Shown in pieces: positions 15,179 to 39,563 of a stretch of DNA of 40,564 bases; the first letter of the stretch is position 1, and each line of letters starts with the position of its first letter. The notes under the pieces were generated by a model, which saw only the letters and a list, made by a program, of their open reading frames with translations, was not told the DNA's origin and searched no databases. The translations under genes were made by a program, and so were the position numbers. The DNA is from a virus, in IMG/VR virus record IMGVR_UViG_3300042453_001972, positions 1 through 40,564 of that record; one strand, given 5' to 3'.

Positions 15179-15931
15179 TCAGTCCCCGATCAGCGGCGGG
15201 CGGTTGGAGAACAAGTTCACCTTAGGGATCTGATCTCCAAATCCATGATGCCACCAAAGGAATGCTTCTGCCTGTTCTCGCTCATACTGCGACAAAACGG
15301 AATCGGCCATGATGCAACCAAACATTGTCGGAGAGTCGCCTACGGAAAGCGTTCCGCTTGGGTTGTTGATACCTGCGCTGAAAAGCGTGCTAACGTTGTT
15401 AATGTCGATTCTGTAGTCGCTTCCCGATCCAGTGTAGTATTGCGAATGGCAGATAACGGACCCAATGCTTCTTGAAGTTGCTGGCGCAAGAAACTGCACT
15501 CCACCATGCAGGCCGCCATATGCGTTGTTCGAAGCATAGTTGTAAATTGCTCCGTATCCGCTCGATCCGCCGTTCCCATTGTAAAACGGAACTAAATCGG
15601 TGCTTGTTCCGGCATCCAGCAAAAGCAAAACAAATGTGTATGTTGTTCCAGACAAAACGGAAGATGTTCCCAGTGAAGCACCAGCAACGCCGCCGACCCC
15701 GTTTGGGTATCCTCCGGAATCAAATTGGAGCAATGGTCGGTTTGCGTCTACCGATTGCGTAAGGTTTCTACCAAACCTATCCCGCCAAGATGAAATCTTG
15801 CCACCGGCCTCTAGCGTCATAGTGTCCGGAGCGCGGCCGTCCAACCACACGCGGATCTTGGACGACATCAATGGCGTCCACAGCCGCCCCTGGATCCGCG
15901 CGCTGTCGTAGTCGGTGAAGCCGCGCGGCAT
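15179..15931 (-). CDS. Concanavalin/LamG-like virion protein, possible receptor binder (250 aa)
   Basis: The pattern fits phage lectin-fold (LamG/ConA-like) structural proteins: WLDGRAPDT at 29-37, ISSWRDRFGRNLTQ at 46-59, ANRPLL at 63-68, many Gly/Ser/Asn-rich loops, and the usual closing helix EREQAEAFLWWHHG near the end. Such domains bind sugars on hosts or decorate virions. The start at 15931 follows the upstream stop by one base; an ATG at 15964 is inside the neighbour. The DNA from about 15180 to 15800 is clearly richer in A and T than its surroundings, a sign of recent acquisition. Confidence 0.65.
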   Translation of the reverse strand: MPRGFTDYDSARIQGRLWTPLMSSKIRVWLDGRAPDTMTLEAGGKISSWRDRFGRNLTQSVDANRPLLQFDSGGYPNGVGGVAGASLGTSSVLSGTTYTFVLLLLDAGTSTDLVPFYNGNGGSSGYGAIYNYASNNAYGGLHGGVQFLAPATSRSIGSVICHSQYYTGSGSDYRIDINNVSTLFSAGINNPSGTLSVGDSPTMFGCIMADSVLSQYEREQAEAFLWWHHGFGDQIPKVNLFSNRPPLIGD

Positions 15932-15932
15932 G

Positions 15933-16343
15933 TCAGGTGACGTCCTCGTTCCATGGCCGGACATACAGTTCGTTGCCGCTCGCGGCGAGCGTCACGCCCG
16001 CGTTGTTGACCACCGATAGCCTGAGCGAATACGGCGGCAGCCTGACCTGCACGACGTTGACCTTGGCCGACGCGCCGCTCGTCAGCGGCAGGACGTAGAC
16101 ATCGCCGCCGACCTTGTCGCTCGTATCGGTGCCGTCGTTGATCGTCACGCGGATCGAGACCGATCCTTTGGTCGATGGCGTGATCGAGCCGAGCTTGAGC
16201 GTGAACAGCGCGTAGAGATCGCGGTTGGTGCTGTTGTCATACGTGACGACTGCGCTTTCCGACGCATTCGCTAACGAGTTCGCAACCGTCGAGAGGATGT
16301 TGCTGCTGCGGGTGCTGGGCGTGGCCCATTTCGCGACTGCCAT
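15933..16343 (-). CDS. Structural protein, unknown (136 aa)
   Basis: A beta-rich, Ser/Thr/Asn-rich protein with repeated strand segments (LYALFTLKLGSITP, GSVSIRVTINDG, KVNVVQVRLPPYSLRLSVVNN). It has no signal peptide or enzyme motif. It shares one base with the upstream stop and is one base from the lectin-like gene, so all three are coupled. It looks like an Ig-like or jelly-roll virion protein; the family was not recognised. Confidence 0.6.
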   Translation of the reverse strand: MAVAKWATPSTRSSNILSTVANSLANASESAVVTYDNSTNRDLYALFTLKLGSITPSTKGSVSIRVTINDGTDTSDKVGGDVYVLPLTSGASAKVNVVQVRLPPYSLRLSVVNNAGVTLAASGNELYVRPWNEDVT

Positions 16344-16780
16344 CACCGACCTCCGCGCGCCAGGCCTACTGCCCGCGCGTCAACCGTCACACCATTGGCC
16401 TCAGCCCATGACGGATGCCGCGTGCGCCGCGACAGGGCCAGCAGCGCCTCGCCCTCTTCCTGGGTCAGGATCCGGCCAGCGACCAGCGTCGCGAGCTGCG
16501 AACGAGCCGATGGCCGCGACAGGTCGAGGCCGGGACCGCGGATCAGTTCCAGTCCCCACCGGACCACCGGCGTCGTCTCGGCCAGCGTCTCCAGGGCGTC
16601 GAGAAAGGTCGCCCCGGCAGTCGGCCCGAGCGTGTCGAGAATCGCGCCGATGCCGATCTTGGTTTCAACCCAGGTCTCGACCGCCGGCAGCGTCGGATCG
16701 GGCTGGTTCAGCGCCGCCGCAGCCTGCCAGTCGGGCAGGTCCGCGAGGTCGGTCTGCGCGAGGCGGTCGGCGAGAGTCAT
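16343..16780 (-). CDS. Hypothetical structural-region protein (145 aa)
   Basis: A mainly helical acidic protein. An Asp/Leu-rich start (TLADRLAQTDLADLPDW), a helical middle and a C-terminal segment ILTQEEGEALLALSRRTRHPSW resemble proteins I recall from alphaproteobacterial siphophages, but I cannot name a function. It overlaps the small coiled-coil gene by four bases and the next by one. It could be a scaffold or a chaperone for the neighbouring virion proteins. Confidence 0.6.
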   Translation of the reverse strand: MTLADRLAQTDLADLPDWQAAAALNQPDPTLPAVETWVETKIGIGAILDTLGPTAGATFLDALETLAETTPVVRWGLELIRGPGLDLSRPSARSQLATLVAGRILTQEEGEALLALSRRTRHPSWAEANGVTVDARAVGLARGGR

Positions 16781-16941
16781 GCGAGCCCCCGGAGGGTTTC
16801 GAGCGTCGCCTCGGTCTCGGTGATTTCGGCATCGAGTGCGGCGACGCGATCCGGCTCACCATTCCTGTCAGCGGTCGCCCGCGCAGAGTTGAGCGTGGCG
16901 AGTCGGTTCTGCGCGAGGCGGATCAGATCGGAGATGGACAT
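16777..16941 (-). CDS. Small coiled-coil protein (54 aa)
   Basis: Short helical protein starting MSISDLIRLAQNRLATLNSA, with heptad-like spacing of Leu/Ile/Ala over nearly the whole length. The ATG at 16941 overlaps the last base of the upstream stop region and its stop overlaps the next start, so the gene is held in a coupled array. No homology recognised. It probably helps fold or bind the 536-residue virion protein encoded just upstream. Confidence 0.6.
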   Translation of the reverse strand: MSISDLIRLAQNRLATLNSARATADRNGEPDRVAALDAEITETEATLETLRGLA

Positions 16942-18551
16942 CAGAACAGGACCAACAATTCCTGCGTGACCGTCGAGAGATGCGACTGGAGCAGGATCAC
17001 GTCGTACTTGTCCGATCCGTCGATCGCGGCGAACGCCGCCATTCGCTGACCGATCGCAGCGGTGCCGGATTGCAGGAAATCGGTCGAAACATGCGGCGAA
17101 AGCACTCGGTTCTTCGCGTCGAACCGATATATCTGATTGACCTGCGAGGCGACGTAGATGTTCAGATACGTGAAGCGGCCCTCGCCCCCATAAGGGGCAT
17201 AGCATCCTGTCGTGCCAGCACCGGTCGCGTTCTGCGCCCCGTCGTAGGTGATGGCGCCCGTCCATGTGCCGGTGATCGTATTCGCGATGTCGAGGACATC
17301 GAGCGTTGTCGCGCCGCCACGGAAGAAATAATTGAAGCTGTGGCGAGCATTGCGTGCGGGATCGGGCTGAATGCCGAACGACGGCGCCCACAAGCATCCT
17401 GCTGCATTGTTCGCCGGGCCAGCGCCGAAATACGCCGTGGACCAAGCATTCGACGCGATGCTGTTCGTTCCGTTGTTGATGGTCGCATCAGTGTAGTTGT
17501 AGGTGTAGGTCGTCGTGTTGCCGCTGGTCCGCAGGACAATCAGATTCGGCTGCTCGATCACGTATTTCGCCGTGCTGGATGGCGTCGTCGTCCATGCGGT
17601 GCCGAGCGTGTAGACCGGCGACGCGCCAGCCGTGTGCGAGGCGATGATGCGACGCTGGCCCACCGCAGCAGGGGTGCCAGTATCTTGAACGATGCGGATC
17701 TGAAAATTCCGGTATTCGTTCGCCACGACGACAGCGTCGCCGTCCGCCGCTTGTCCGGTCAGCGAAGACGCGCCTGTTGCGGTGGCTGTCAGGGCCTTCC
17801 GCGACACGATGTTCGTGTCGTATGTGAAGCCGCCCTTGATCATGCCCTCGCCGGGCTCGTTGTTGTAGGGCGTATACTGCTCGTCCATGACCAGCAGCGC
17901 GCTATCCGTGGCAACGGTAGCGACAAGGTTGGTGGTCGATAGATTCGCCAGCGTATTCGCTGCGACCTCGTAGCTGCGCCACGACGCCGCTGCGAGAGCG
18001 CCGCTCGAAAGCATGATGACGCGGCCCGAAAGCAGTTCGTATCGCGCGCCGGTCGCGGGCGTGAACGTGAAGGCGTTATCGACGGTGATCGTCGGCGTCG
18101 TGCCGGACGTATTCCCGACGATGAAGCGTTCCTCGACTTTGCCCGCCGTGGTGTCGGTGATGCGGATCTTGAAGCCGTAGTCACCCGAGCCGCCACGGTT
18201 CGCCAGCATGTTGACGCCGACAGCGGTCGGTAGCGCCGTCGAGAGCGCGAAGCTGGTCGTTGTCGCGCCCGCAGCGATGGTTCCGACAGCGGCGAAGCTG
18301 GGGACGAAGCACATTGCCGCGCCTGCCGCGACAGCAGCAGCGCCGGGGTTGATTGATAGCTGCCAGGACTTCGTGACGATGTTGTAGCGATTGAGGACCG
18401 TGGTCGAGATCAGGTTCTGCACGAACGGATGCCGCGAGACATCGCTTCGCATGTCGCAGCACATGAGCGTTCCGGCAGCATGCGCGTTTGGCGAGGGCGA
18501 GGTCTGCACCCACTCCAGACGGTCGATGACTTTTTTGAATGTGTTTGCCAT
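16941..18551 (-). CDS. Large virion structural protein (536 aa)
   Basis: Beta-rich, Thr/Ala/Gly/Asn-rich protein with repeated similar blocks: 'GKVEERFIVGNTSGTTPTIT...ATGARYELLSGRVIML' and 'VGQRRIIASHTAGASPVYTL...STAKYVIEQPNLIVL' are two copies of one module. It has several Trp and aromatic loops and a C-terminal helix. I recall similar proteins among virion components of diverse phages, often described as beta-propeller or minor structural proteins. It may be a collar, head or baseplate component. No enzyme motif. Confidence 0.65.
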   Translation of the reverse strand: MANTFKKVIDRLEWVQTSPSPNAHAAGTLMCCDMRSDVSRHPFVQNLISTTVLNRYNIVTKSWQLSINPGAAAVAAGAAMCFVPSFAAVGTIAAGATTTSFALSTALPTAVGVNMLANRGGSGDYGFKIRITDTTAGKVEERFIVGNTSGTTPTITVDNAFTFTPATGARYELLSGRVIMLSSGALAAASWRSYEVAANTLANLSTTNLVATVATDSALLVMDEQYTPYNNEPGEGMIKGGFTYDTNIVSRKALTATATGASSLTGQAADGDAVVVANEYRNFQIRIVQDTGTPAAVGQRRIIASHTAGASPVYTLGTAWTTTPSSTAKYVIEQPNLIVLRTSGNTTTYTYNYTDATINNGTNSIASNAWSTAYFGAGPANNAAGCLWAPSFGIQPDPARNARHSFNYFFRGGATTLDVLDIANTITGTWTGAITYDGAQNATGAGTTGCYAPYGGEGRFTYLNIYVASQVNQIYRFDAKNRVLSPHVSTDFLQSGTAAIGQRMAAFAAIDGSDKYDVILLQSHLSTVTQELLVLF

Positions 18552-29363: not shown

Positions 29364-29945
29364 TCAGGTAGCCCCGCCCGTCGTTTCGTCGTCCGGCGGC
29401 CCCGCGGCCGGGCTGCGGAGGGATGCGCGGATGTCGTCGAGGATCTTGTCGACGCGCTGGCGCTGGTCGGGCGGCAGATCGGAGTAGCGCGGCGGCGGGC
29501 TGTCGTCCTGGACCGGGAGCGCCATCACGCGGCGCAGCTGGTGCCGCAGGCGCTTGGTCTCGGCGGTCTCGGCCTCCAGATGCTCGCACAGTTCCGCGAA
29601 CGACGGAAACCACCGGAACTTGCGCGCAGCAACCCCGAGGCTGGATTTTGTGAACGCGCTGGCCGGGTATTCGAGCATCGTGGCGTAGGCCCGCGCCTTC
29701 CCGGTCGCATCGGCCTCGTCGGTTCTGGTTGCGGTCAGCGTGCCCAGTGCGGTCAGCCAGCGCAACGCCAGCGCCTCGGGCGCGGGCTTCAGCGCCTCAT
29801 CGACCGCCGCCAGCGCGCTCTGCGCTTCGGCCTTCAACCTCGAAGAAGCTGCCATCGGCGCCCCGGGCTGCTCGGTCTCGATCCTCGCGAGCAAGCCTTT
29901 CAGCGAGGACGATAAAGCCGTTGCGATTGCGAGATCCTGCGCCAT
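29364..29945 (-). CDS. Putative replication accessory protein (193 aa)
   Basis: Helical protein encoded after the DUF1376 replication gene. The centre (MLEYPASAFTKSSLGV, then RKFRWFPSFAELCEHLEAE) resembles the 'FFPTPAEL' helix of helicase-loader-type proteins, so a helicase loader or inhibitor role is possible. The tail is Pro/Asp-rich. It overlaps the upstream gene by 149 bases if the first ATG is used; an internal ATG at 29855 would shorten the overlap to 59 bases. The C-terminus runs into the next gene with two bases between. Confidence 0.5.
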   Translation of the reverse strand: MAQDLAIATALSSSLKGLLARIETEQPGAPMAASSRLKAEAQSALAAVDEALKPAPEALALRWLTALGTLTATRTDEADATGKARAYATMLEYPASAFTKSSLGVAARKFRWFPSFAELCEHLEAETAETKRLRHQLRRVMALPVQDDSPPPRYSDLPPDQRQRVDKILDDIRASLRSPAAGPPDDETTGGAT

Positions 29946-30726
29946 TCCGCGATCCTCGGTTCACATTGCGTTCTGCCGACCGGCGGACCCAGTTCCGCCA
30001 CGTCGCGCTCCAGTTGCTTTTGCGCCCAGCAGCGCCGGGCTTGGCGCGCCAGTAGTCCCTGAACGATCCCGCCTCGCGCTCCGGGTCGATGCCCTCGGCT
30101 TGGGCGAAGGCCCGATCTTCGTCCGATGGCGTCCAATCGACGGGCAGGCGCGATCCGCGGTCGGCGCGCGGCTCTGCGCGCGCTCCAGACTTATCAGGAC
30201 CGGGAGGTTGTTCAGAGTTGCAGGATGTATCCTTTACTGTACGGTCCCTGTCCTGTCCTGTCCTGTCGTCCGTTACGTTATCGTCTCGTAACGCGTCGCG
30301 AGACGGTGACGTTACCGTCTCGTCGCCGTCTCCAGCGTCAGCCGGTGCTGCGCGCTCGCGCCATTTGCGCTGCCGCGCCCTCGACTTTTCCCTTTGCTCC
30401 CAAGCCTCTAGCGCCTTCTCGGCCAGGACCTGATGGTAGATCCGCCCATCGGAGCACAGCACGAACCCGCGCAGCGCCATCGCCCTGACGGCGGGCCAGT
30501 TTGCCCCCGCGCCGCTCAGATGGGCCAGCAGCCGGTCGTCGTTGGGCAGCGACGCGGCGGGCACCTGCGCCCAGGCCTTTGCCCAGAGCGCGACCGCCGC
30601 CTTGAACTCGTCGCCAGTCGATAGGATGAACAGGTCGCTGTCGAGAAGCCGCTGGACGTCGAGCGGCATCCACGCGAAGCCGCGCAAGTTGCAATCGGCT
30701 GGCGTGAGTGGTTCTGGAGGTGACAT
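29797..30726 (-). CDS. DUF1376-type replication protein (309 aa)
   Basis: The N-terminal 110 residues match DUF1376 domains of phage replication proteins: W.PLDV..LL.SDL...STGDEFKAAVALWAKAWAQVPAASLP, then DDRLLA.LSG and GRIYH..LAEKALEAWE. A long charged linker (about 115-195) precedes a conserved 'WRAKPGAAGRKSNWSATWRNWVRR' block typical of these proteins. It probably acts at the phage origin with host replication proteins. The start at 30726 follows GAAAGG. The promoter at 30849-30877 drives it. The last 50 codons overlap the next gene in another frame. Confidence 0.7.
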   Translation of the reverse strand: MSPPEPLTPADCNLRGFAWMPLDVQRLLDSDLFILSTGDEFKAAVALWAKAWAQVPAASLPNDDRLLAHLSGAGANWPAVRAMALRGFVLCSDGRIYHQVLAEKALEAWEQREKSRARQRKWRERAAPADAGDGDETVTSPSRDALRDDNVTDDRTGQDRDRTVKDTSCNSEQPPGPDKSGARAEPRADRGSRLPVDWTPSDEDRAFAQAEGIDPEREAGSFRDYWRAKPGAAGRKSNWSATWRNWVRRSAERNVNRGSRNGAGSRNRNGFIVLAERLAREDRDRAARGADGSFFEVEGRSAERAGGGR

Positions 30727-30988: not shown

Positions 30989-31303
30989 CTAGCGCGGTCC
31001 TGGCGCGTCTGGCCACCAACGCCGCAGCGCAGCCACGGCCACATTCCACGTCGTCGCGTTCTTGGGCAGCCTCCAGATCGCCGCGTGATAGACGACCGTC
31101 GCACGGTCGCGGTTGAATTGCTCGGCGATCTGATCGTTGGTCATGTCGCGTATCCCCGCGTGAGCGATCGCGATCGACAGCGAGCGAGCCCTCGCAGTGA
31201 GCTGGCGCCGGTCCCGGCCGAAAACGCTCTCCGGATTTGCAAGACCGAATTGCAACGCCACGGTGAACGCGATCCTGTTGACGACCTCCAGGCGCCGGCT
31301 CAT
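30989..31303 (-). CDS. DnaA domain IV-like DNA-binding protein (104 aa)
   Basis: The C-terminal half resembles the DnaA DNA-binding domain alone: a helix 'RQLTARARSLSIAIAHAGIRDMT', then NDQIAEQFNRDRATVVYHA (55-73), where DnaA has a 'eIG..FGgRdHtTVlha' recognition element. The ATPase part is absent. Such phage proteins may bind DnaA-box-like sites, start replication or compete with host DnaA. It overlaps the GapR-like gene by ATGA. After it comes the 262-base control region of the replication gene. The call is motif-based. Confidence 0.55.
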   Translation of the reverse strand: MSRRLEVVNRIAFTVALQFGLANPESVFGRDRRQLTARARSLSIAIAHAGIRDMTNDQIAEQFNRDRATVVYHAAIWRLPKNATTWNVAVAALRRWWPDAPGPR

Positions 31304-31560
31304 ACGCCCAGCTCCAGCTGCACCCCGAGGCGCGCCGCGTAGAGGGCCAGCTGCTGCAGCCGCTCCTCGGCCCGCTGGCGCTTCTTGTCGTCGCGCCGGA
31401 GCTTGGCCACCGCCAACAGCGCCGCCGCATCGAACCCGGCCGATTTGATCTCGACCTTCAGATCCTTCAGCGCGTCCGCAGCCTCCTCTATCTCGCCGAG
31501 CACTCGGTCGAGGCGGTCGGCAAACCGGCTCAGGTCGTCGTTGGGCTTGGCTTCAGACAT
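31300..31560 (-). CDS. GapR-like protein, DUF2312 (86 aa)
   Basis: Small coiled-coil protein with the DUF2312 pattern: RFADRLDRVLGEIEEAADAL, then VEIKSAGFDAAALLAVAKLR (about 36-55) and RRDDKKRQRAEERL. In Caulobacter, GapR binds overtwisted DNA ahead of replication forks and helps topoisomerases. The length (86) is that of the family. The ATG at 31560 follows AGGAGGACGG at good spacing. A phage copy could support phage replication or mimic the host protein. It overlaps both neighbours. Confidence 0.7.
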   Translation of the reverse strand: MSEAKPNDDLSRFADRLDRVLGEIEEAADALKDLKVEIKSAGFDAAALLAVAKLRRDDKKRQRAEERLQQLALYAARLGVQLELGV

Positions 31561-31912
31561 TCTCCGTCCTCCTGATTGGCGCTTGATTGCGCCGCATGAT
31601 TGCAAGGTATTCGATGTAGCGCCCCATCTCCGCGCGGCGCTGCACAAGGTCGACCAGCCGCGGCGCACCCTCGACGAAATACCCGTTCAGCCCGCGGATC
31701 AGCGCCTTGCCCGGCCGCTGCTCTGTCAGCAGCCGCGGATTGAGGCCCGCCGCCGCCTGAACCGTCGCCCGCAGCGCCTCGATCGCAGGCCGCGCGCGCG
31801 CGTCGCCAGCGAGGCCTAGGCCGCGGTAGTAGATGCACCGGTCGCCAGGCTGCGCAACCTGCAGCCACTGGCCGAACGCATCAATCGTTGTCGCCTCAAT
31901 CGTCATCGTCAT
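31553..31912 (-). CDS. Conserved phage protein of unknown function (119 aa)
   Basis: Starts with two candidate ATGs (31912 and 31906; MTMTIEATT). The first 30 residues (IDAFGQWLQVAQPGDRCIYYRGLGLA) follow a pattern I recall from small phage proteins with 'F..WL..A.pGdr..Y..G.LA', and the last part has 'VDLVQRR.EMGRYIEYLAIMRR'. The role is unknown, but such genes often sit with RusA and replication genes, as here. It overlaps RusA by 17 bases and GapR by eight. Confidence 0.6.
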   Translation of the reverse strand: MTMTIEATTIDAFGQWLQVAQPGDRCIYYRGLGLAGDARARPAIEALRATVQAAAGLNPRLLTEQRPGKALIRGLNGYFVEGAPRLVDLVQRRAEMGRYIEYLAIMRRNQAPIRRTENV

Positions 31913-32300
31913 CGTCCTCGATCTCTTGAATATGCAGCCGGGTGCGCGGCTGCTCGCGGTCAATGTGGTGGTGGAGGTGCATCTCTCGAACCTGCCGGTC
32001 GTTGCGGTAGATCCGGCCCTGCAGCAGATCCAGGACCAGCGAGATGTCCAGATCCGGCCGCTGCGTCGAGTACCAGACATGCGCGGTCAGGCTTAGCCGC
32101 CCGCGCAACATCTGATCCGGCCCGAGCCGCGGCACCTGGAGCGCGGCCGCCTCGGCGTAGTCGAGCGCCTTCTGGCTCTTGATGAAGAACGGCCGCCCGC
32201 CGCGCTTGACCAGCCGCCGCGAGTTCGCCTTGCTCGCGGGCTCACCGGCGATCGTGCCGCTCCACCAACGCAGGGGCAGGACGCGCGAGCTGCGGATCAT
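31896..32300 (-). CDS. RusA-like Holliday junction resolvase (134 aa)
   Basis: The motif RPDLDISLVLDLLQGRIYRNDRQV (split: RPDLD, LDLLQG, ND) follows RusA, where three Asp bind magnesium (here candidates are the Asp residues of RPDLD, LDLL and RNDRQ). The end LHIQEI and an Asp-rich tail (six Asp) complete it. RusA resolves branched DNA before packaging and suits the RecT recombination system on the other strand. The ATG at 32300 overlaps the HTH stop; the longer upstream frame is shadow. Canonical RusA has 'DxDN'; here the Asn is Ile, a small deviation. Confidence 0.7.
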   Translation of the reverse strand: MIRSSRVLPLRWWSGTIAGEPASKANSRRLVKRGGRPFFIKSQKALDYAEAAALQVPRLGPDQMLRGRLSLTAHVWYSTQRPDLDISLVLDLLQGRIYRNDRQVREMHLHHHIDREQPRTRLHIQEIEDDDDDD

Positions 32301-32800
32301 GTCGCGCACATCCCGGCCGCGCACCCGACCTCGCTCCGAACCGTGTCGCGCCGCTGGTCGAACCTCGCAACCAGCGTCGGGCGGACGGCCGCATCCTCGT
32401 ACCTCAGATTGCCCGCCCACGAAGCCCACCGCGCGTCCGCGTCGATCAGGTCCTTCTCCCGCATGCCCGGGCGCTCTTCTTCCCGCTGCCGCGCGTCGTA
32501 CAGGCCGCGCTCGGTCAGGATGCGCACCACGGTGGACGCCTGCATCCGCAGATCGCGCGCGATATGCGCGACCCTGCGCCCGGCCATCGCCACGACCGCG
32601 TCGATCTGGTCCTGCCGCGGGCCGCGCGGGCGGTCGGGCAGGCCGAGCTTTTTCTTCCAATGGCCGACGTTCTGCTCGTGTGCCCATCCCATGTGGTCGC
32701 AGATTTCGCGATAGCTGCGGCCCTCCGTGTACAGGCGCCGGAACTTCTCGCGCGCTTCCGGCGCGTCGGTTGTGCGTGGGGCTCGGGGCTTGGTGGTCAT
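32297..32800 (-). CDS. GcrA-like double helix-turn-helix regulator (167 aa)
   Basis: Two DNA-binding helix-turn-helix parts are visible. The first (about 17-58: FRRLYTEGRSYREICDHMGW, then VGHWKKKLGLPDRPRG) resembles GcrA, whose pattern is '..L..EGLSA.QIA..LG.....AV.GK..RLGL.GR'. The second (about 65-100: QIDAVVAMAGRRVAHIARDL, then STVVRILTERGL) is a resolvase/MarR-like HTH. The C-terminus is charged. It is the second gene of the leftward control block and probably regulates it, or host promoters. The GcrA relation is a motif-level guess. Confidence 0.55.
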   Translation of the reverse strand: MTTKPRAPRTTDAPEAREKFRRLYTEGRSYREICDHMGWAHEQNVGHWKKKLGLPDRPRGPRQDQIDAVVAMAGRRVAHIARDLRMQASTVVRILTERGLYDARQREEERPGMREKDLIDADARWASWAGNLRYEDAAVRPTLVARFDQRRDTVRSEVGCAAGMCAT

Positions 32801-32824
32801 GCGATATCCTGATCGGTAACGTCT

Positions 32825-33034
32825 TCAGTCGATCGAAGACGCCGCGAACAGATCTTCGGTGTCGCCATCGAATCGCACCCCGTTAGCGGCGGCCGTGACG
32901 TTCTTCACGGCTTGCCGATAGTAGCTCGGCTTCAGCTCGGCGCCCATGCCTCGGCGGTCGAGCATGACCCGATCAACATCCTTCTGTCCAATGCGTGATC
33001 CGCATATCGCCCATGCGGGAAAAGCATTTCCCAT
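32825..33034 (-). pseudogene. C-terminal fragment of a DNA methyltransferase
   Basis: The open frame 33034 to 32825 ends in RRGMGAELKPSYYRQAVKNV, the closing motif of many phage N6/N4 DNA methyltransferases (usual form '..GRR.iGiELK.sYyrqAv.N'), where it forms part of the AdoMet pocket. The catalytic (D/N/S)PP(Y/W/F) motif and the rest of the domain are missing, and the upstream DNA belongs to the divergent operon, so about 55 residues remain. ATGs at 33034 and 32965 could start a short peptide. It may be a decayed gene or a small protein with a new job. Confidence 0.5.
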
Positions 33035-33081
33035 CTGCCGCCGATGCGGGCCAGATCCCGCCACGCCGCGACGGTGCGGCG
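33017..33081. promoter_or_regulatory. Palindromes in the divergent control region
   Basis: GGGAAA-AGCA-TTTCCC (33017-33032) is a perfect six-base inverted repeat, and ATGC/GCAT (33013-33027) overlaps it: a good operator candidate. CGCCGC (33064-33069) and GCGGCG (33076-33081) form a hairpin 18 bases before the first rightward start codon, just ahead of its GAGGAGG site. No convincing -35/-10 pair was found on either strand, although both operons must start near here. Confidence 0.4.
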
Positions 33082-33098
33082 GGAACTGAGGAGGATGA

Positions 33099-33335
33099 AT
33101 GCTCGCTTCTATCGTGGCCACCGACTGCGACGAGCTGTCAGTACATGCTCAGGTCAGGCCATATCAAGCGTGGGTCTCGGTGACCGTCCGAACCACGACC
33201 GACGCAAGCCGGGCGGCGACGCTGATTGTCAGCCCCGCGGTCGCGCGCAGCCTGATCGACGAGCTGCGCAACGCGGTGGCGGCGCTCGACGCCGAGATGG
33301 CCGCCAGCGCGGCACAGGTGGCCGATGCCGGTTGA
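33099..33335 (+). CDS. First gene of the rightward operon, unknown (78 aa)
   Basis: Has a strong ribosome site (GAGGAGG at 33088-33094) before the ATG. The protein has a beta-rich first half (VHAQVRPYQAWVSVTVRTT) and a helical second half (AVARSLIDELRNAVAALDAEMAAS). No family recognised. As the first gene after the divergent control region it is probably expressed early. It overlaps the next small gene. Confidence 0.65.
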   Translation: MLASIVATDCDELSVHAQVRPYQAWVSVTVRTTTDASRAATLIVSPAVARSLIDELRNAVAALDAEMAASAAQVADAG

Positions 33336-33408
33336 GCGCATCGCCGAGGTCGTGGCGGTGCTGGCGTTCGCGGCGCTGCTGGCCTTCGCGCTGCTGGCGT
33401 TCTCGTGA
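33325..33408 (+). CDS. Predicted single-span membrane microprotein (27 aa)
   Basis: ATG at 33325 opens a 27-residue product, MPVERIAEVVAVLAFAALLA then FALLAFS, almost wholly a hydrophobic helix. It overlaps the end of the upstream gene by 11 bases and its TGA overlaps the GTG start of the next. That chain of overlaps, and the clean membrane helix, support a real gene. It could be a small membrane regulator or toxin-like peptide. Confidence 0.45.
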   Translation: MPVERIAEVVAVLAFAALLAFALLAFS

Positions 33409-33599
33409 CCGCCGCGTGGCTCACCCTGGCGCTGGTCTGCAGCGCGACCGGCCCGGCCCGGGCGGATCGCGTGTGCCGGGGCGTCGAGATCAGGGCCGGT
33501 TCTTACGACGAGTGCCGACAGCAGATCGCCGGGCTTCGGCTGGTGCTGGCAGGCACGATGTCGTGGGTGATGTGGCAGGAATGCAGGAGGGAGACATGA
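33405..33599 (+). CDS. Predicted exported small Cys protein (64 aa)
   Basis: GTG at 33405 is chosen from the overlap with the upstream stop. A signal peptide (TAAWLTLALVCSATGPARA) with cleavage likely after ARA is followed by a mature chain of about 43 residues with three Cys, one in RVCRG, one in DECRQQ and one near the end (WQECRRE). It may act in the periplasm. Its stop overlaps the nuclease start in ATGA. Unknown family. Confidence 0.5.
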   Translation: MTAAWLTLALVCSATGPARADRVCRGVEIRAGSYDECRQQIAGLRLVLAGTMSWVMWQECRRET

Positions 33600-34465
33600 T
33601 CAACGACGGCTATCACGACGGCGTCCCATTCGACGCCTACCTCGCGCCCGGCACCTTCGGCCCGCGCGCGGTCAGCGGCTCGGATCTCGTCGCGTTCGAG
33701 ACCGAGTGCCCGGCGCATGCGTATGCGTTCTGGCGCGGCAACCCCGACCGGCAGCGGTCGGACGCCACGCCCGCGATGACGTTTGGCTCGGCAGCGCATG
33801 CGTATCTGCTGGAGGGCCCCGACGCCTTCCATGCGCGCTACGTCGTCAAGCCCGATGGCCTCAGCCTCGCAACGCGCGAGGGCAAGGCCTGGAAGGAGAC
33901 GGTCGGCGCGCGCGAGATGGTCAGCTTCGGCGACCACATGCGCATCCTTGACATGCAGGCCGCGCTGATGCGCAACCCCGCCGCCGCGAAGCTGCTGCGG
34001 GCCGGCGGCGTCGCCGAGGCCACCATGATCGCAACCGACCCGGAGACCGGCCTGCGTCTGCTGACGCGGCCCGACCTCTACATCGGCAAACTGGGCTTGT
34101 CGGTCAACCTCAAGACCACGCAATCGCCGCATCCCGAGGCGTGGCGGCGAACCTGCGCGAACCTGCGCTATGACCTGTCCGACGCGCTGTTCCGCCGCGT
34201 GGCGCGGCTGCTCGGCATCGAGAACGCATCTCATGCGTTCCTGGTCGTCGGATCGAAGCCGCCTCATCTCAACTACGTCGCGGCACTCAGCGCCGAGGCC
34301 GCATTCGCCGCCGACGCGCAGCTCGACCAGATCCTGCGCCGGTTCGCGATCTGCATCGACAGCGGCCACTGGCCCAGCTACGCCGATGGCGTCGTCGAGA
34401 TCGGCCTGCCGAGCTGGGCGGCAGCGAAGATCCAGCAATCCATCACCGAGGGAGACGCAGCATGA
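33596..34465 (+). CDS. RecE-like PD-(D/E)XK exonuclease, DUF3799 type (289 aa)
   Basis: Paired with RecT just downstream. Family segments include VSGSDLVAFETECPAHAYAF, MTFGSAAHAYLLEG (H68), the Glu of AEATMIATDP, RPDLYIG (D160) and VNLKTT (N171-L-K173). D160, position 171 and K173 have the spacing of E. coli RecE D748, D759 and K761 (from memory), but position 171 is Asn, not Asp. It should degrade double-stranded ends to load RecT; the substitution may lower or abolish activity. The ATG at 33596 follows CAGGAGGGA; the long frame upstream is shadow. Confidence 0.75.
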   Translation: MINDGYHDGVPFDAYLAPGTFGPRAVSGSDLVAFETECPAHAYAFWRGNPDRQRSDATPAMTFGSAAHAYLLEGPDAFHARYVVKPDGLSLATREGKAWKETVGAREMVSFGDHMRILDMQAALMRNPAAAKLLRAGGVAEATMIATDPETGLRLLTRPDLYIGKLGLSVNLKTTQSPHPEAWRRTCANLRYDLSDALFRRVARLLGIENASHAFLVVGSKPPHLNYVAALSAEAAFAADAQLDQILRRFAICIDSGHWPSYADGVVEIGLPSWAAAKIQQSITEGDAA

Positions 34466-35397
34466 CCGATGTCGCAGCCTACACCCCGCCCGCGCTTGCG
34501 GCGGCCAACGAGCCGGACCCGCTGGCCCCGGCCCAGTTTGAGCACTCGCAGCGCATTGCGAAGATGTTCGCGAGCAGCGAACTCGTGCCGCCGCACATGC
34601 GTGGCAAGATCGCGGACTGCCTGATCGCCTACGCAATCGCAAAGCGGACGCGCGAGGAGCCGCTCGTCGTGTTGCAGAATATCTACTTCGTGTCTGGCCG
34701 GGCGGGCTGGTCGGCGACGTACATGATCGCGAAGGCCAACCGCTCGGGCGCGTTCTCGCGGCGCATCAACTGGCGCGTTGAGGGCGACGGCAAGAACCTG
34801 CGCGTCACCGCATTCGCCACGCTGGCCGACAGCGGCGAGCCGGTCGAGGCCACCGCGTCGATGGCGATGGCCGAGGCCGAGGGCTGGACGAAAAACCCGA
34901 AATACAAGTCGATGCCGGAGCAGATGCTGCGCTATCGCAGCGCGACGATGCTGATCCGCCTGTTCGCGCCCGAGGTCATGATGGGATTGCCGGTCGCGGA
35001 CGAAATCGACTACGCCCAGGCGCGCGGGCCAGCGCCCATGCGCGACGTAACGCCCCACACGCCAGCCGCATCGCTCGCGGCGGCGCTCGACAGCATCGAA
35101 CAAGAAGCCGACATCACGACAGCGACGGCCGGGTCGGACGCGGACAACGTCCCCTCCTCCGTGGCAGCCTCGGTAGCTGCTCCGACCGTCGCGCCTGCTG
35201 ACGAGCTGCGCTCCGACCTGCGCGCCAAATGCCTGTCGCTGGTCGAAGCGATCCGCTCGGCCAAGTCGCCGGACGCGCTGGACAAGATCATGGTGGCCGC
35301 CCGGCCCGCGCTGGACGCGATCGCGCGGGAGAGCGAGACCGCGCATGGGTGGGTTCTCAGTGAGGCGAGCAAGCGTCTCGCGGAGACGACGGAATAG
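34462..35397 (+). CDS. RecT-family single-strand annealing protein (311 aa)
   Basis: Anneals complementary single strands for phage recombination. The core shows RecT segments: QRIAKMFASSELVPPHMRGK, EPLVVLQNIYFVSGRAGWSA, SRRINWRVEG, AEGWTKNPKYKSMPEQMLRY and IRLFAPEVMMGLPVADEIDY. The C-terminal 90 residues form an Ala/Thr linker and a helical tail that could bind host SSB or the nuclease. ATGA overlap with the nuclease shows translational coupling, the normal layout for RecET-like pairs. Confidence 0.85.
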   Translation: MTDVAAYTPPALAAANEPDPLAPAQFEHSQRIAKMFASSELVPPHMRGKIADCLIAYAIAKRTREEPLVVLQNIYFVSGRAGWSATYMIAKANRSGAFSRRINWRVEGDGKNLRVTAFATLADSGEPVEATASMAMAEAEGWTKNPKYKSMPEQMLRYRSATMLIRLFAPEVMMGLPVADEIDYAQARGPAPMRDVTPHTPAASLAAALDSIEQEADITTATAGSDADNVPSSVAASVAAPTVAPADELRSDLRAKCLSLVEAIRSAKSPDALDKIMVAARPALDAIARESETAHGWVLSEASKRLAETTE

Positions 35398-37744: not shown

Positions 37745-37998
37745 GCGACATCCCAACTTGGCATGAACGCGCAATGCGCCACCCTGACCACCAATCCGGC
37801 ATGATCAGCGAGGGCATGATCCGCGCGCGCATGGCCGAGGAGATCGCGGATTTGCGGGCCGAGGTCGAGCGGCTGCGGGCGGTGCTGCGACAGTGTGCCT
37901 GCTCTTGCAAGGCACTCAGGGAGTCCTGTCCGGAACTGGAAATGGACGGCACCTGCCCGCATTTGAGCGCGCAAGAGTCGCTGGAGGGAAAGCTATGA
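37741..37998 (+). CDS. Small coiled-coil Cys protein (85 aa)
   Basis: Contains IADLRAEVERLRAVLRQCAC (about 35-54), a coiled coil that recurs in two further genes downstream with nearly identical DNA. Behind it CACSC and later CPELEMDGTCPH give five Cys that may bind metal. It ends LEGKL with ATGA overlap to the next gene. Function unknown; the shared coil suggests these proteins can pair with each other. Confidence 0.6.
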   Translation: MSDIPTWHERAMRHPDHQSGMISEGMIRARMAEEIADLRAEVERLRAVLRQCACSCKALRESCPELEMDGTCPHLSAQESLEGKL

Positions 37999-38516
37999 GC
38001 GGCGGAAGCATGAATTATCTGTACATCTTGGTCAGGGATGCCGAATTCCACACTCACTCACCAGAGCGAAAGGCATTTCGCGAGCATCTCATGCTCGTTG
38101 CAAACGCTTTGAGGGCCATTGAGTGGAACGACAGCGGTGATGGAGACGATCAAGAGGTTCACAACATCATGGCCTGCATATCCCTGTCGGTATCGGAAAA
38201 TGACATGCTGCGCGCCGAAAACGCCCGCCTCCGCGCCGATGTTCCAGTGTACTCAAGCGAGATCGAGCGGCTGCGGGGGGAGATGCCCGTGGCCGAATCT
38301 CTAAGGGTCGATGCCAAGTGCGCGGAGATCGAGCGCGACGAGGCCCGCGCTGTTGTTTGGAAGCAGGCCAAAGATAACGCGGATCTGCGGGCCGAGGTCG
38401 AGCGGCTGCGCGAGATCATCAGGACCATTCGCGCACGTTGCGTGGAACTCGACGACGGCGACGCCGTTTCGGCAACGCTCGACATCACAAGCGCAGTTTT
38501 GGATAGCAAGCCATGA
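37995..38516 (+). CDS. Coiled-coil protein with shared DLRAEVERLRE motif (173 aa)
   Basis: The N-terminal 60 residues (MNYLYILVRDAEFHTHSPER, AFREHLMLVANALRAIEWND) form a separate part. It is followed by coiled coils: NDMLRAENARLRADV, SSEIERLRGEM and, near residues 131-150, DLRAEVERLREIIRTIRARC. The last coil is nearly the same as in the genes at 37741 and 38738. It ends in DSKP with the 'AAGCCATGA' junction. Function unknown; probably an oligomeric adaptor. Confidence 0.6.
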   Translation: MSGGSMNYLYILVRDAEFHTHSPERKAFREHLMLVANALRAIEWNDSGDGDDQEVHNIMACISLSVSENDMLRAENARLRADVPVYSSEIERLRGEMPVAESLRVDAKCAEIERDEARAVVWKQAKDNADLRAEVERLREIIRTIRARCVELDDGDAVSATLDITSAVLDSKP

Positions 38517-38698
38517 GCGTGATCAATCTCTCAGATCGCCGCCCGCCGGTTAAGTATACCGTGAGGATCACTCACCATTGGGACGACAGCCTGGAAGTAT
38601 TTGTCGAAGATGTGACTGACGACGAGCGCAGCCGTCAATCCGTTGCCGATGCGCTAGCCCGGGCCGCGCGCGTGTTCGCCAATCGCGAAAGACTGTAG
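38513..38698 (+). CDS. Small protein, unknown (61 aa)
   Basis: Starts MSVINLSDRRPPVKYTVRIT, a strand-rich first half (HHWDDSLEVFVEDV) and a helical end with Ala/Arg (SVADALARAARVFANRE). I recall similar small phage proteins but no function. ATGA overlap with the upstream gene. After its TAG stop a 39-base gap precedes the next ATG. Confidence 0.6.
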   Translation: MSVINLSDRRPPVKYTVRITHHWDDSLEVFVEDVTDDERSRQSVADALARAARVFANRERL

Positions 38699-38737
38699 CG
38701 AGCCGGGGTGGTGAAAAATATACGGAAAGATAATGGC

Positions 38738-39046
38738 ATGAGAGGACATCAACCAACCATGGGAACAGGGGCTCCCAGACAGACGCCCGATCAGGGCACT
38801 AGCGGAAGAAGATATACAGTTCGTGAGGGAGATTTGGATCTTCGTGCCGAGGTCGAGCGGCTGCGCGAGGTGCTGGAAGTCGTCCGAATCGACGGCCCAG
38901 ACGCTCAAAGTCTGGTCTGGTTGAGTTTCTCTCGTGAAGGAGGGGTGCGCGTTAGTTTCGTGGTGGGCCACAAGGAACGAATGGTTTCGCAAGCCTTGCT
39001 GGAGTTTGAGCAGATCCGCCGCAAGGCGCTGGAGACCAAGCCATGA
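38738..39046 (+). CDS. Coiled-coil protein with shared DLRAEVERLRE motif (102 aa)
   Basis: A polar Gly/Thr-rich N-terminus leads to LDLRAEVERLREVLEVV, the third copy of the shared coil, then a beta-rich segment (LVWLSFSREGGVRVSFVVG) and a helix ending LETKP. The start is uncertain: ATG at 38738 or GTG at 38708, which would add ten residues (no strong ribosome site for either). The stop overlaps the next ATG. Confidence 0.55.
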   Translation: MRGHQPTMGTGAPRQTPDQGTSGRRYTVREGDLDLRAEVERLREVLEVVRIDGPDAQSLVWLSFSREGGVRVSFVVGHKERMVSQALLEFEQIRRKALETKP

Positions 39047-39402
39047 GCGACAAGATCGCAGAGATTCGCGCAAGGCATGCAGCCGACGCCAATGATGCTG
39101 CTGTTCTCCACCCGGAGCTTTCGCCGACTTGGGCGCTGGCCGGGTGGAGAGCGCACGACGACCGGGGTTGCTTGCTGGCCGAGATCGAGCGCCTGACCCG
39201 CGAGCGCGACGAGGCGCGGGCCGCGCTGCAGCCGTTCGCCGCGCTTCCCCTTTGGCCCGACGATGCGGGCGAATGGATGGTCAACGAAGTTCGGTCCGAC
39301 GAAGATTGGGACGAGGAGAAGAACGACGCGCAGACTGACGATGTCTTCATCGCGCGCGGCGACATCAGAGCGGCGCGCAAAGCGCTGGAGGCCAAGCCAT
39401 GA
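39043..39402 (+). CDS. Ead/Ea22-like small acidic protein (119 aa)
   Basis: Begins MSDKIAEIRARHAADANDAA, then a central segment DDRGCLLAEIERLTRERDEA (coil) and an acidic part (SDEDWDEEKNDAQTDD). The layout 'I..RH.AD......D...LL.EI.RL..ERDEAR' is common in short phage early proteins of unknown function. It ends LEAKP at the AAGCCATGA junction. It probably belongs with the coil genes before it. Confidence 0.55.
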   Translation: MSDKIAEIRARHAADANDAAVLHPELSPTWALAGWRAHDDRGCLLAEIERLTRERDEARAALQPFAALPLWPDDAGEWMVNEVRSDEDWDEEKNDAQTDDVFIARGDIRAARKALEAKP

Positions 39403-39563
39403 TCCTCCTCGCCGCCATCTACCTCGCAATATGCGGCCTCGCCACCGCGCTGGCTGGCGTCGCGCTGCTGTTCGAGGCGCGCGGCGACCGGTTCGTTGCG
39501 CGACTCGGCGCTGGCCTGCTGATCGGCGGGCTGGCGGGCGTGGCGCTGGCGGTGGCGATATGA
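39399..39563 (+). CDS. Small two-span membrane protein (54 aa)
   Basis: Two hydrophobic helices: MILLAAIYLAICGLATALAG plus VALLF, then a polar turn EARGDRFVARL, then GAGLLIGGLAGVALAVAI. The ATG at 39399 overlaps the upstream TGA and its own TGA overlaps the next ATG, so it is a real link of the coupled array despite its size. Both ends are likely on the same side of the membrane. Function unknown. Confidence 0.6.
   Translation: MILLAAIYLAICGLATALAGVALLFEARGDRFVARLGAGLLIGGLAGVALAVAI

Follow-up and report, generated by a model that had tools for sequence, protein, structure and literature searches.

Does a phage that encodes several proteins resembling the cell-cycle regulators of its host use them to seize replication timing, or do these genes serve the replication of the phage itself? 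The question is raised by a 2-kb gene cluster (positions 30989-33034) of the virus record IMGVR_UViG_3300042453_001972, analysed here over its entire length of 40,564 nucleotides (hereafter, the window). A sequence-only reading of the cluster had listed a DnaA domain IV-like protein, a DUF2312/GapR-like protein, a protein whose first helix-turn-helix (HTH) resembles GcrA and the C-terminal motif of a DNA methyltransferase. The two ends of the window consist of an exact 127-base repeat, so that it represents one complete virus record, with a genome of about 40,437 bp. The whole genome has a G+C content of 67% and contains no tRNA; its terminase is only about 45-50% identical to those of the nearest cultured relatives, and the right part of the window has no match at the DNA level among cultured phages.

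The cluster is the front half of a leftward DNA-replication operon, in a tailed phage of about 40.4 kb. Several genes of this region had not been named in the earlier reading. On the minus strand, a RusA-type Holliday-junction resolvase (31896-32324) scored over the cut-off for PF05866 (E=6.5e-9, 36.9 bits against 22.8), matched phrog_140 (5.1e-9) and is 49-62% identical to the copies found in related phages. Further along the same strand, a DUF1376 replisome organiser or primosomal protein (29797-30699; PF07120 3.2e-11, phrog_22470 1.7e-35, phrog_3992 1.7e-31) is followed by a conserved 193-aa protein (29364-29945), 45-58% identical in relatives. The last two genes overlap by 149 nt (29797-29945); in five relatives the corresponding overlap measures 125-131 nt, with ATG or GTG at the corresponding place. 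A 119-aa protein is encoded between RusA and GapR (31553-31912, minus strand); it was called by coding score and ribosome site, matched no Pfam or PHROG family, and is unchanged in sister contigs. The divergent recombination operon lies on the plus strand and includes a RecE-like exonuclease (DUF3799, 33596-34465; Pfam 1.6e-17 and phrog_412 1.1e-58, both scores obtained on the frame 33044-34465) and a RecT single-strand annealing protein (34462-35397; PF03837 2.1e-5, phrog_561 7e-64).

The GapR assignment of the gene at 31300-31560 (minus strand) was borne out, since the product matched PF10073 (GapR_DNA-bd; DUF2312/UPF0335) with E=1e-9 and a score of 38.3 bits (cut-off 22.6), and its best PDB sequence match was the GapR structure 6jyk (E=4.7e-5). 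No match was found among cultured phages. The NCBIfam equivalog NucAsocGapRCau was not reached (26.1 bits against a cut-off of 140), and the protein is a member of the GapR family, not an established orthologue of Caulobacter GapR. A ribosome site precedes the gene, which overlaps the adjacent DnaA-like gene by 4 nt (ATGA); these features, together with the conservation of GapR in relatives, indicate that the two genes do not occur by chance.

The AlphaFold2 model of this GapR contains two long helices (residues 5-40 and 45-78) and matches the helical-monomer layout of GapR, in which a long first helix is followed by helices 2 and 3; the latter fuse into one in free GapR from Bosea (PMC6853979). 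Foldseek searches with the monomer model did not recover GapR structures. The dimer salt-bridge residues R26-E47 and R65, as well as Y82, are kept as in Caulobacter GapR (CCNA_03428; PDB 6jyk, 6ozx and 6cg8), whereas overall identity to host-type GapR is only 22-33% and a 2-residue insertion common to the phage clade distinguishes it from host proteins. Four of eight DNA-contact residues are still basic (K42, K49, R63 as K, K66 as R) and four are lost (K34, K56, K59, K60). The contact residues were listed according to the literature (PMC7373187, PMC7498317). With half of the basic contacts kept, the protein may bind DNA less strongly or in a changed manner, and phage GapRs offer natural variants lacking half of the DNA contacts studied so far.

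A tree of 79 GapR domains was built on few columns and is unsure in its deep order; in it, the 13 members of the phage clade form a single long branch (support 100). The remaining phage GapRs fall at two or more positions between host GapRs, and the gene was therefore probably captured more than once. The branch is under purifying selection comparable to that on RecT: dN/dS is 0.07-0.44 overall in the clade and 0.25-0.39 between the window and its relatives, and 0.22-0.55 for RecT. Work on GapR has so far dealt with it as a factor of the host chromosome. The host protein forms a tetramer on overtwisted DNA and enhances the activity of gyrase and topo IV. A role at replication has been described (PMC8510090, PMC7373187, PMC6853979). 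Erythrobacter phages R34L1 and R34L2 carry a GapR homologue, presented in 2025 as the first in a phage (PMC12185513). These are likewise phage-encoded, but were described as near host copies acquired by infection, whereas the protein of the window belongs to a core, divergent, phage-only branch.

The gene downstream (30989-31303, minus strand) encodes a protein of 104 aa, which matched Bac_DnaA_C (PF08299) with E=4.7e-7 and 30.2 bits, slightly below the cut-off of 31.5. A PDB sequence search gave no match, and its identity was therefore decided by fold. The AlphaFold2 model, built from the protein of the window together with five recurrent relatives in phages, reached pLDDT 91.8 and pTM 0.85, and Foldseek placed DnaA chains at all of ranks 1-10, with TM values of 0.72/0.78 to 3pvp and 0.69/0.76 to 1j1v over 92-94 aligned columns. 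The proposal of a DnaA domain IV-like protein thus holds, mainly by fold, and the 104-residue protein falls within DnaA. Taken together, membership of the GapR family and the DnaA domain IV fold are nearly certain for the two proteins.

The DnaA-like protein consists of domain IV only and lacks the AAA+ ATPase domain. In an alignment with the DnaA proteins of E. coli and twelve hosts, it keeps R399, R407 and D433, in common with domain IV of known structure (1j1v, 3pvp), but carries R434 and A435 at the two positions which are H434 and T435 in all of the host DnaAs. In E. coli, the R399A and T435M mutants of DnaA are defective in box binding (PMC5742627). Given the H434R and T435A changes in the recognition helix, the protein should not read ordinary DnaA boxes. 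None of these boxes occurs in the window, where only about 0.1 would be expected by chance, so that their absence is uninformative. Searches for close homologues returned only identical contigs, and nothing in genomes or cultured phages.

These residues bear on a reading in which a free domain IV acts as a decoy, competing with DnaA at host boxes or poisoning host initiation and thereby freeing the replisome. Other phage DnaA domain IV proteins mostly retain H434, and its combination with T435 or S435 in seven loci (L085, L102, L104, L141, L044, L064 and L169) makes such a role plausible for those proteins. The R434/A435 pair argues against box occupancy by the protein of the window, and loci with an intact domain IV showed no enrichment of DnaA boxes nearby. 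For the window, a decoy is accordingly quite unlikely.

The third protein (32297-32800, minus strand; 167 aa) had been compared to GcrA by its first HTH. Two HTH units are indeed present, in tandem, but the assignment to GcrA was rejected. PF07750 (GcrA) found no match in the window at E<=10, while a Caulobacter control was positive. With an HMM built from host GcrA genes, the protein was the best-scoring frame of the window, but only with E=0.012 and 10.7 bits. In hhalign comparisons, 52 residues of the first HTH were aligned and none of the C-terminal region of GcrA, where host proteins carry a conserved CxWPxGDP...FCG block. The likeness is therefore limited to a vaguely similar first HTH, and a second HTH stands in place of the GcrA C-terminal region. 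Pfam gave weak, generic HTH matches only (HTH_23/HTH_38); the best curated match, NCBIfam HTH_Cbp1 (5.7e-7), spans both HTHs and is far under the cut-off of its own model. Homologue searches detected identical contigs only, with nothing in genomes or cultured phages, and no target sites for HTH proteins were found. A separate candidate, that the protein is a shortened form of a 245-aa winged-helix protein of relatives with a similar RYED tail, received no support from profile comparison.

The methyltransferase motif noticed earlier is real, being the tail of phrog_16 (E=1.2e-4), but belongs to a stub of only 46 codons (32825-32965, minus strand), a relic of an N6/N4 DNA methyltransferase. The stub had no Pfam match, lacks the SAM-binding and catalytic motifs, and nothing methyltransferase-like lies upstream of it in the window; a CcrM, or any active methyltransferase, was thus rejected for the window. 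The origin of the stub is indicated by the sister contig L004, which is identical over the genes for the HTH protein, RusA, the 119-aa protein, GapR and the DnaA-like protein and has a single difference in the stub. Upstream of a shared GTCATG (window position about 32968) the two sequences are unrelated, with 29% identity over 710 bp, and L004 contains here an open frame with a match to N6_N4_Mtase (PF01555, E=4.3e-10) which runs into the same 46 codons. In comparison with the phrog_16 helicase-methyltransferase and PF01555 families, the window has thus kept the last 46 codons, while the rest of the gene, present as a longer frame in L004, is missing. The junction of the window type is also present, for 13 bases, in contig L002. 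The two junction versions indicate that the right side of the window, with the exonuclease and RecT, was joined inside a methyltransferase gene, leaving the stub, which on comparison of these sequences appears as the product of a module swap or recombination; a chimeric assembly is a less likely origin of the junction.

GANTC is the site of CcrM, and in the whole genome it was found 21 times, against 70 occurrences expected from its own sub-words (ratio 0.30). The most avoided 5-mers among those tested were GACTC/GAGTC and GAATC/GATTC, while seven control palindromes had observed/expected ratios of 0.74-1.18. The ratio was 0.29 in the pooled relatives of the phage group and 0.47 in GapR phages generally; in a mixed set of distant RecT loci the site is hardly avoided (0.86). 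The remaining sites are clustered, 8 of the 21 lying at 15300-17942 and 6 at 37921-39502. GANTC depletion is known from a subset of pelagiphages (PMC9516812). Such avoidance points to hosts which methylate GANTC. Considered together with a RecT-profile search, in which 12 of 13 matching genome contigs came from Proteobacteria, most of these from Alphaproteobacteria, it makes Alphaproteobacteria the probable hosts. It also argues for a phage shunning the methylation site of its host, not for one running its own CcrM circuit.

The idea that mimics of DnaA, GapR, GcrA and a methyltransferase together capture the host cell cycle and seize its replication timing may now be weighed. GapR and the DnaA domain are present, the GANTC avoidance is strong, comparable operons of other phages often include a methyltransferase gene, and GcrA genes are carried by the phages phiCbK (PMC3556154) and Atu_ph08 (PMC6630229). 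However, GcrA was found neither in the window nor in its relatives searched with PF07750, and was never over the cut-off in 50 GapR-bearing phages; the methyltransferase is reduced to a stub, and the DnaA-like protein has neither an AAA+ domain nor the residues that read DnaA boxes. The failure of the GcrA test and the state of the methyltransferase imply that no DnaA/GcrA/CcrM circuit exists in this genome. The remaining recognisable genes of the operon are those of replication and recombination, and an ordinary operon of this type, with RusA, DUF1376, exonuclease and RecT, speaks for direct action in phage DNA replication more than for imitation of host timing. Capture is therefore very unlikely. 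What is retained of the earlier idea is its kernel, namely that GapR and DnaA domain IV, often with an adenine methyltransferase, recur in unrelated alphaproteobacterial phages, and that the CcrM site is avoided.

On the reading that we consider rather probable, this is a replication operon that encodes a topology factor of the phage along with a DNA-binding domain of altered specificity. Phage GapR would clamp overtwisted phage DNA ahead of the forks and might aid host gyrase and topo IV, which would keep a small, fast-replicating genome from stalling. The changed recognition helix suggests that the DnaA-like protein may bind a site particular to the phage, located either at the origin or at the promoter of the operon itself, instead of ordinary DnaA boxes. 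The tandem-HTH protein would regulate the operon.

The components differ in their conservation within the phage group. A RecT search detected 36 loci, about 20 of which (L009-L028) show 64-77% identity in RecT and share the gene order exonuclease-RecT <-> RusA-GapR-DUF1376-193-aa protein. GapR is present in all 12 relatives covering its position. No DnaA-like gene occurs in the other phages of the group, and where the window has the tandem-HTH gene they carry genes for a 67-aa Cro-like and the 245-aa winged-helix protein. GapR is thus a core gene of the group, while the DnaA-like and HTH proteins are accessory.

This distribution also bears on the view that the proteins are purely regulators, with the DnaA-like and HTH proteins as repressors or activators of the early operon and GapR as a general nucleoid protein of the phage or a coactivator of late genes. 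Small size and DNA binding are common to the three, a late activator (phrog_836) is found among the neighbours of phage GapR, and DsbA of T4-type phages, a GapR homologue, has a proposed role in late transcription (PMC7824862). Yet GapR sits in replication operons and not by late promoters, and the relatives have another regulator at that place and yet retain GapR. Regulation as the sole function is, on balance, unlikely, and the replication reading is preferred.

Scanning viral contigs with a GapR profile yielded at least 550 confirmed relatives, flanked mainly by Holliday resolvases, replication initiators, DnaD-like loaders, primosomal proteins, SSB and DNA methyltransferases. DnaA domain IV was over the cut-off in 6 of 50 GapR-bearing viral records, and in five of these six the two genes lie on the same strand within about 2 kb. 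Under random placement such co-location has P of about 4e-6 (5e-5 without a near-duplicate), which demonstrates co-location and not partnership, since two early-module genes would also cluster. Besides the window, six or more phages or prophages, differing in type, have the two genes close to each other, next to genes for replication proteins, resolvases and methyltransferases. A Halocynthiibacter prophage has an MT-A70 methyltransferase between them, and a Mu-like alphaproteobacterial prophage carries DnaA domain IV, Mu Gam and GapR in a row (L085:6977-8290). An additional DnaA domain IV gene was found in about 27 genomes out of 240 class members and an additional GapR in about 14, the two being adjacent within 1 kb in two genomes. 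In phiLM21-like prophages of Sinorhizobium, single DnaA- and UPF0335-type genes accompany five GcrA genes (PMC12429752).

It is conceivable, though rather unlikely, that the pair forms a recurrent, repeatedly assembled cassette, in which DnaA domain IV marks the phage origin with a specificity of its own and GapR controls fork topology. A phage so equipped would start and speed up replication without DnaA boxes, independently of the DnaA/CtrA/GcrA timing of the host, and the window, with its re-specified recognition helix, would represent an extreme form. In any case, the presence of GapR as a core gene in one phage group, and its frequency in viral contigs across at least two lineages, suggest that supercoil control is a bottleneck which phages solve themselves. 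The recurring pairing with a free DnaA domain IV provides a testable system for the re-use and re-specification of the DNA-binding domain of an initiator.

Some arrangements outside this pairing were also observed. In several Alphaproteobacteria (L092-L094), a chromosomal stand-alone DnaA domain IV gene lies beside a conserved gene of about 270 aa, apparently as a host gene pair. Two tandem GapR domains are encoded by a single 250-aa frame of an alphaproteobacterial genome (G093:C4:19068-19556). Finally, a GapR domain ends a 361-aa phage protein (L104:4281-5366; phrog_4212, 9.6e-122) whose middle part is FtsK/SpoIIIE-like, and which is thus a GapR fusion.
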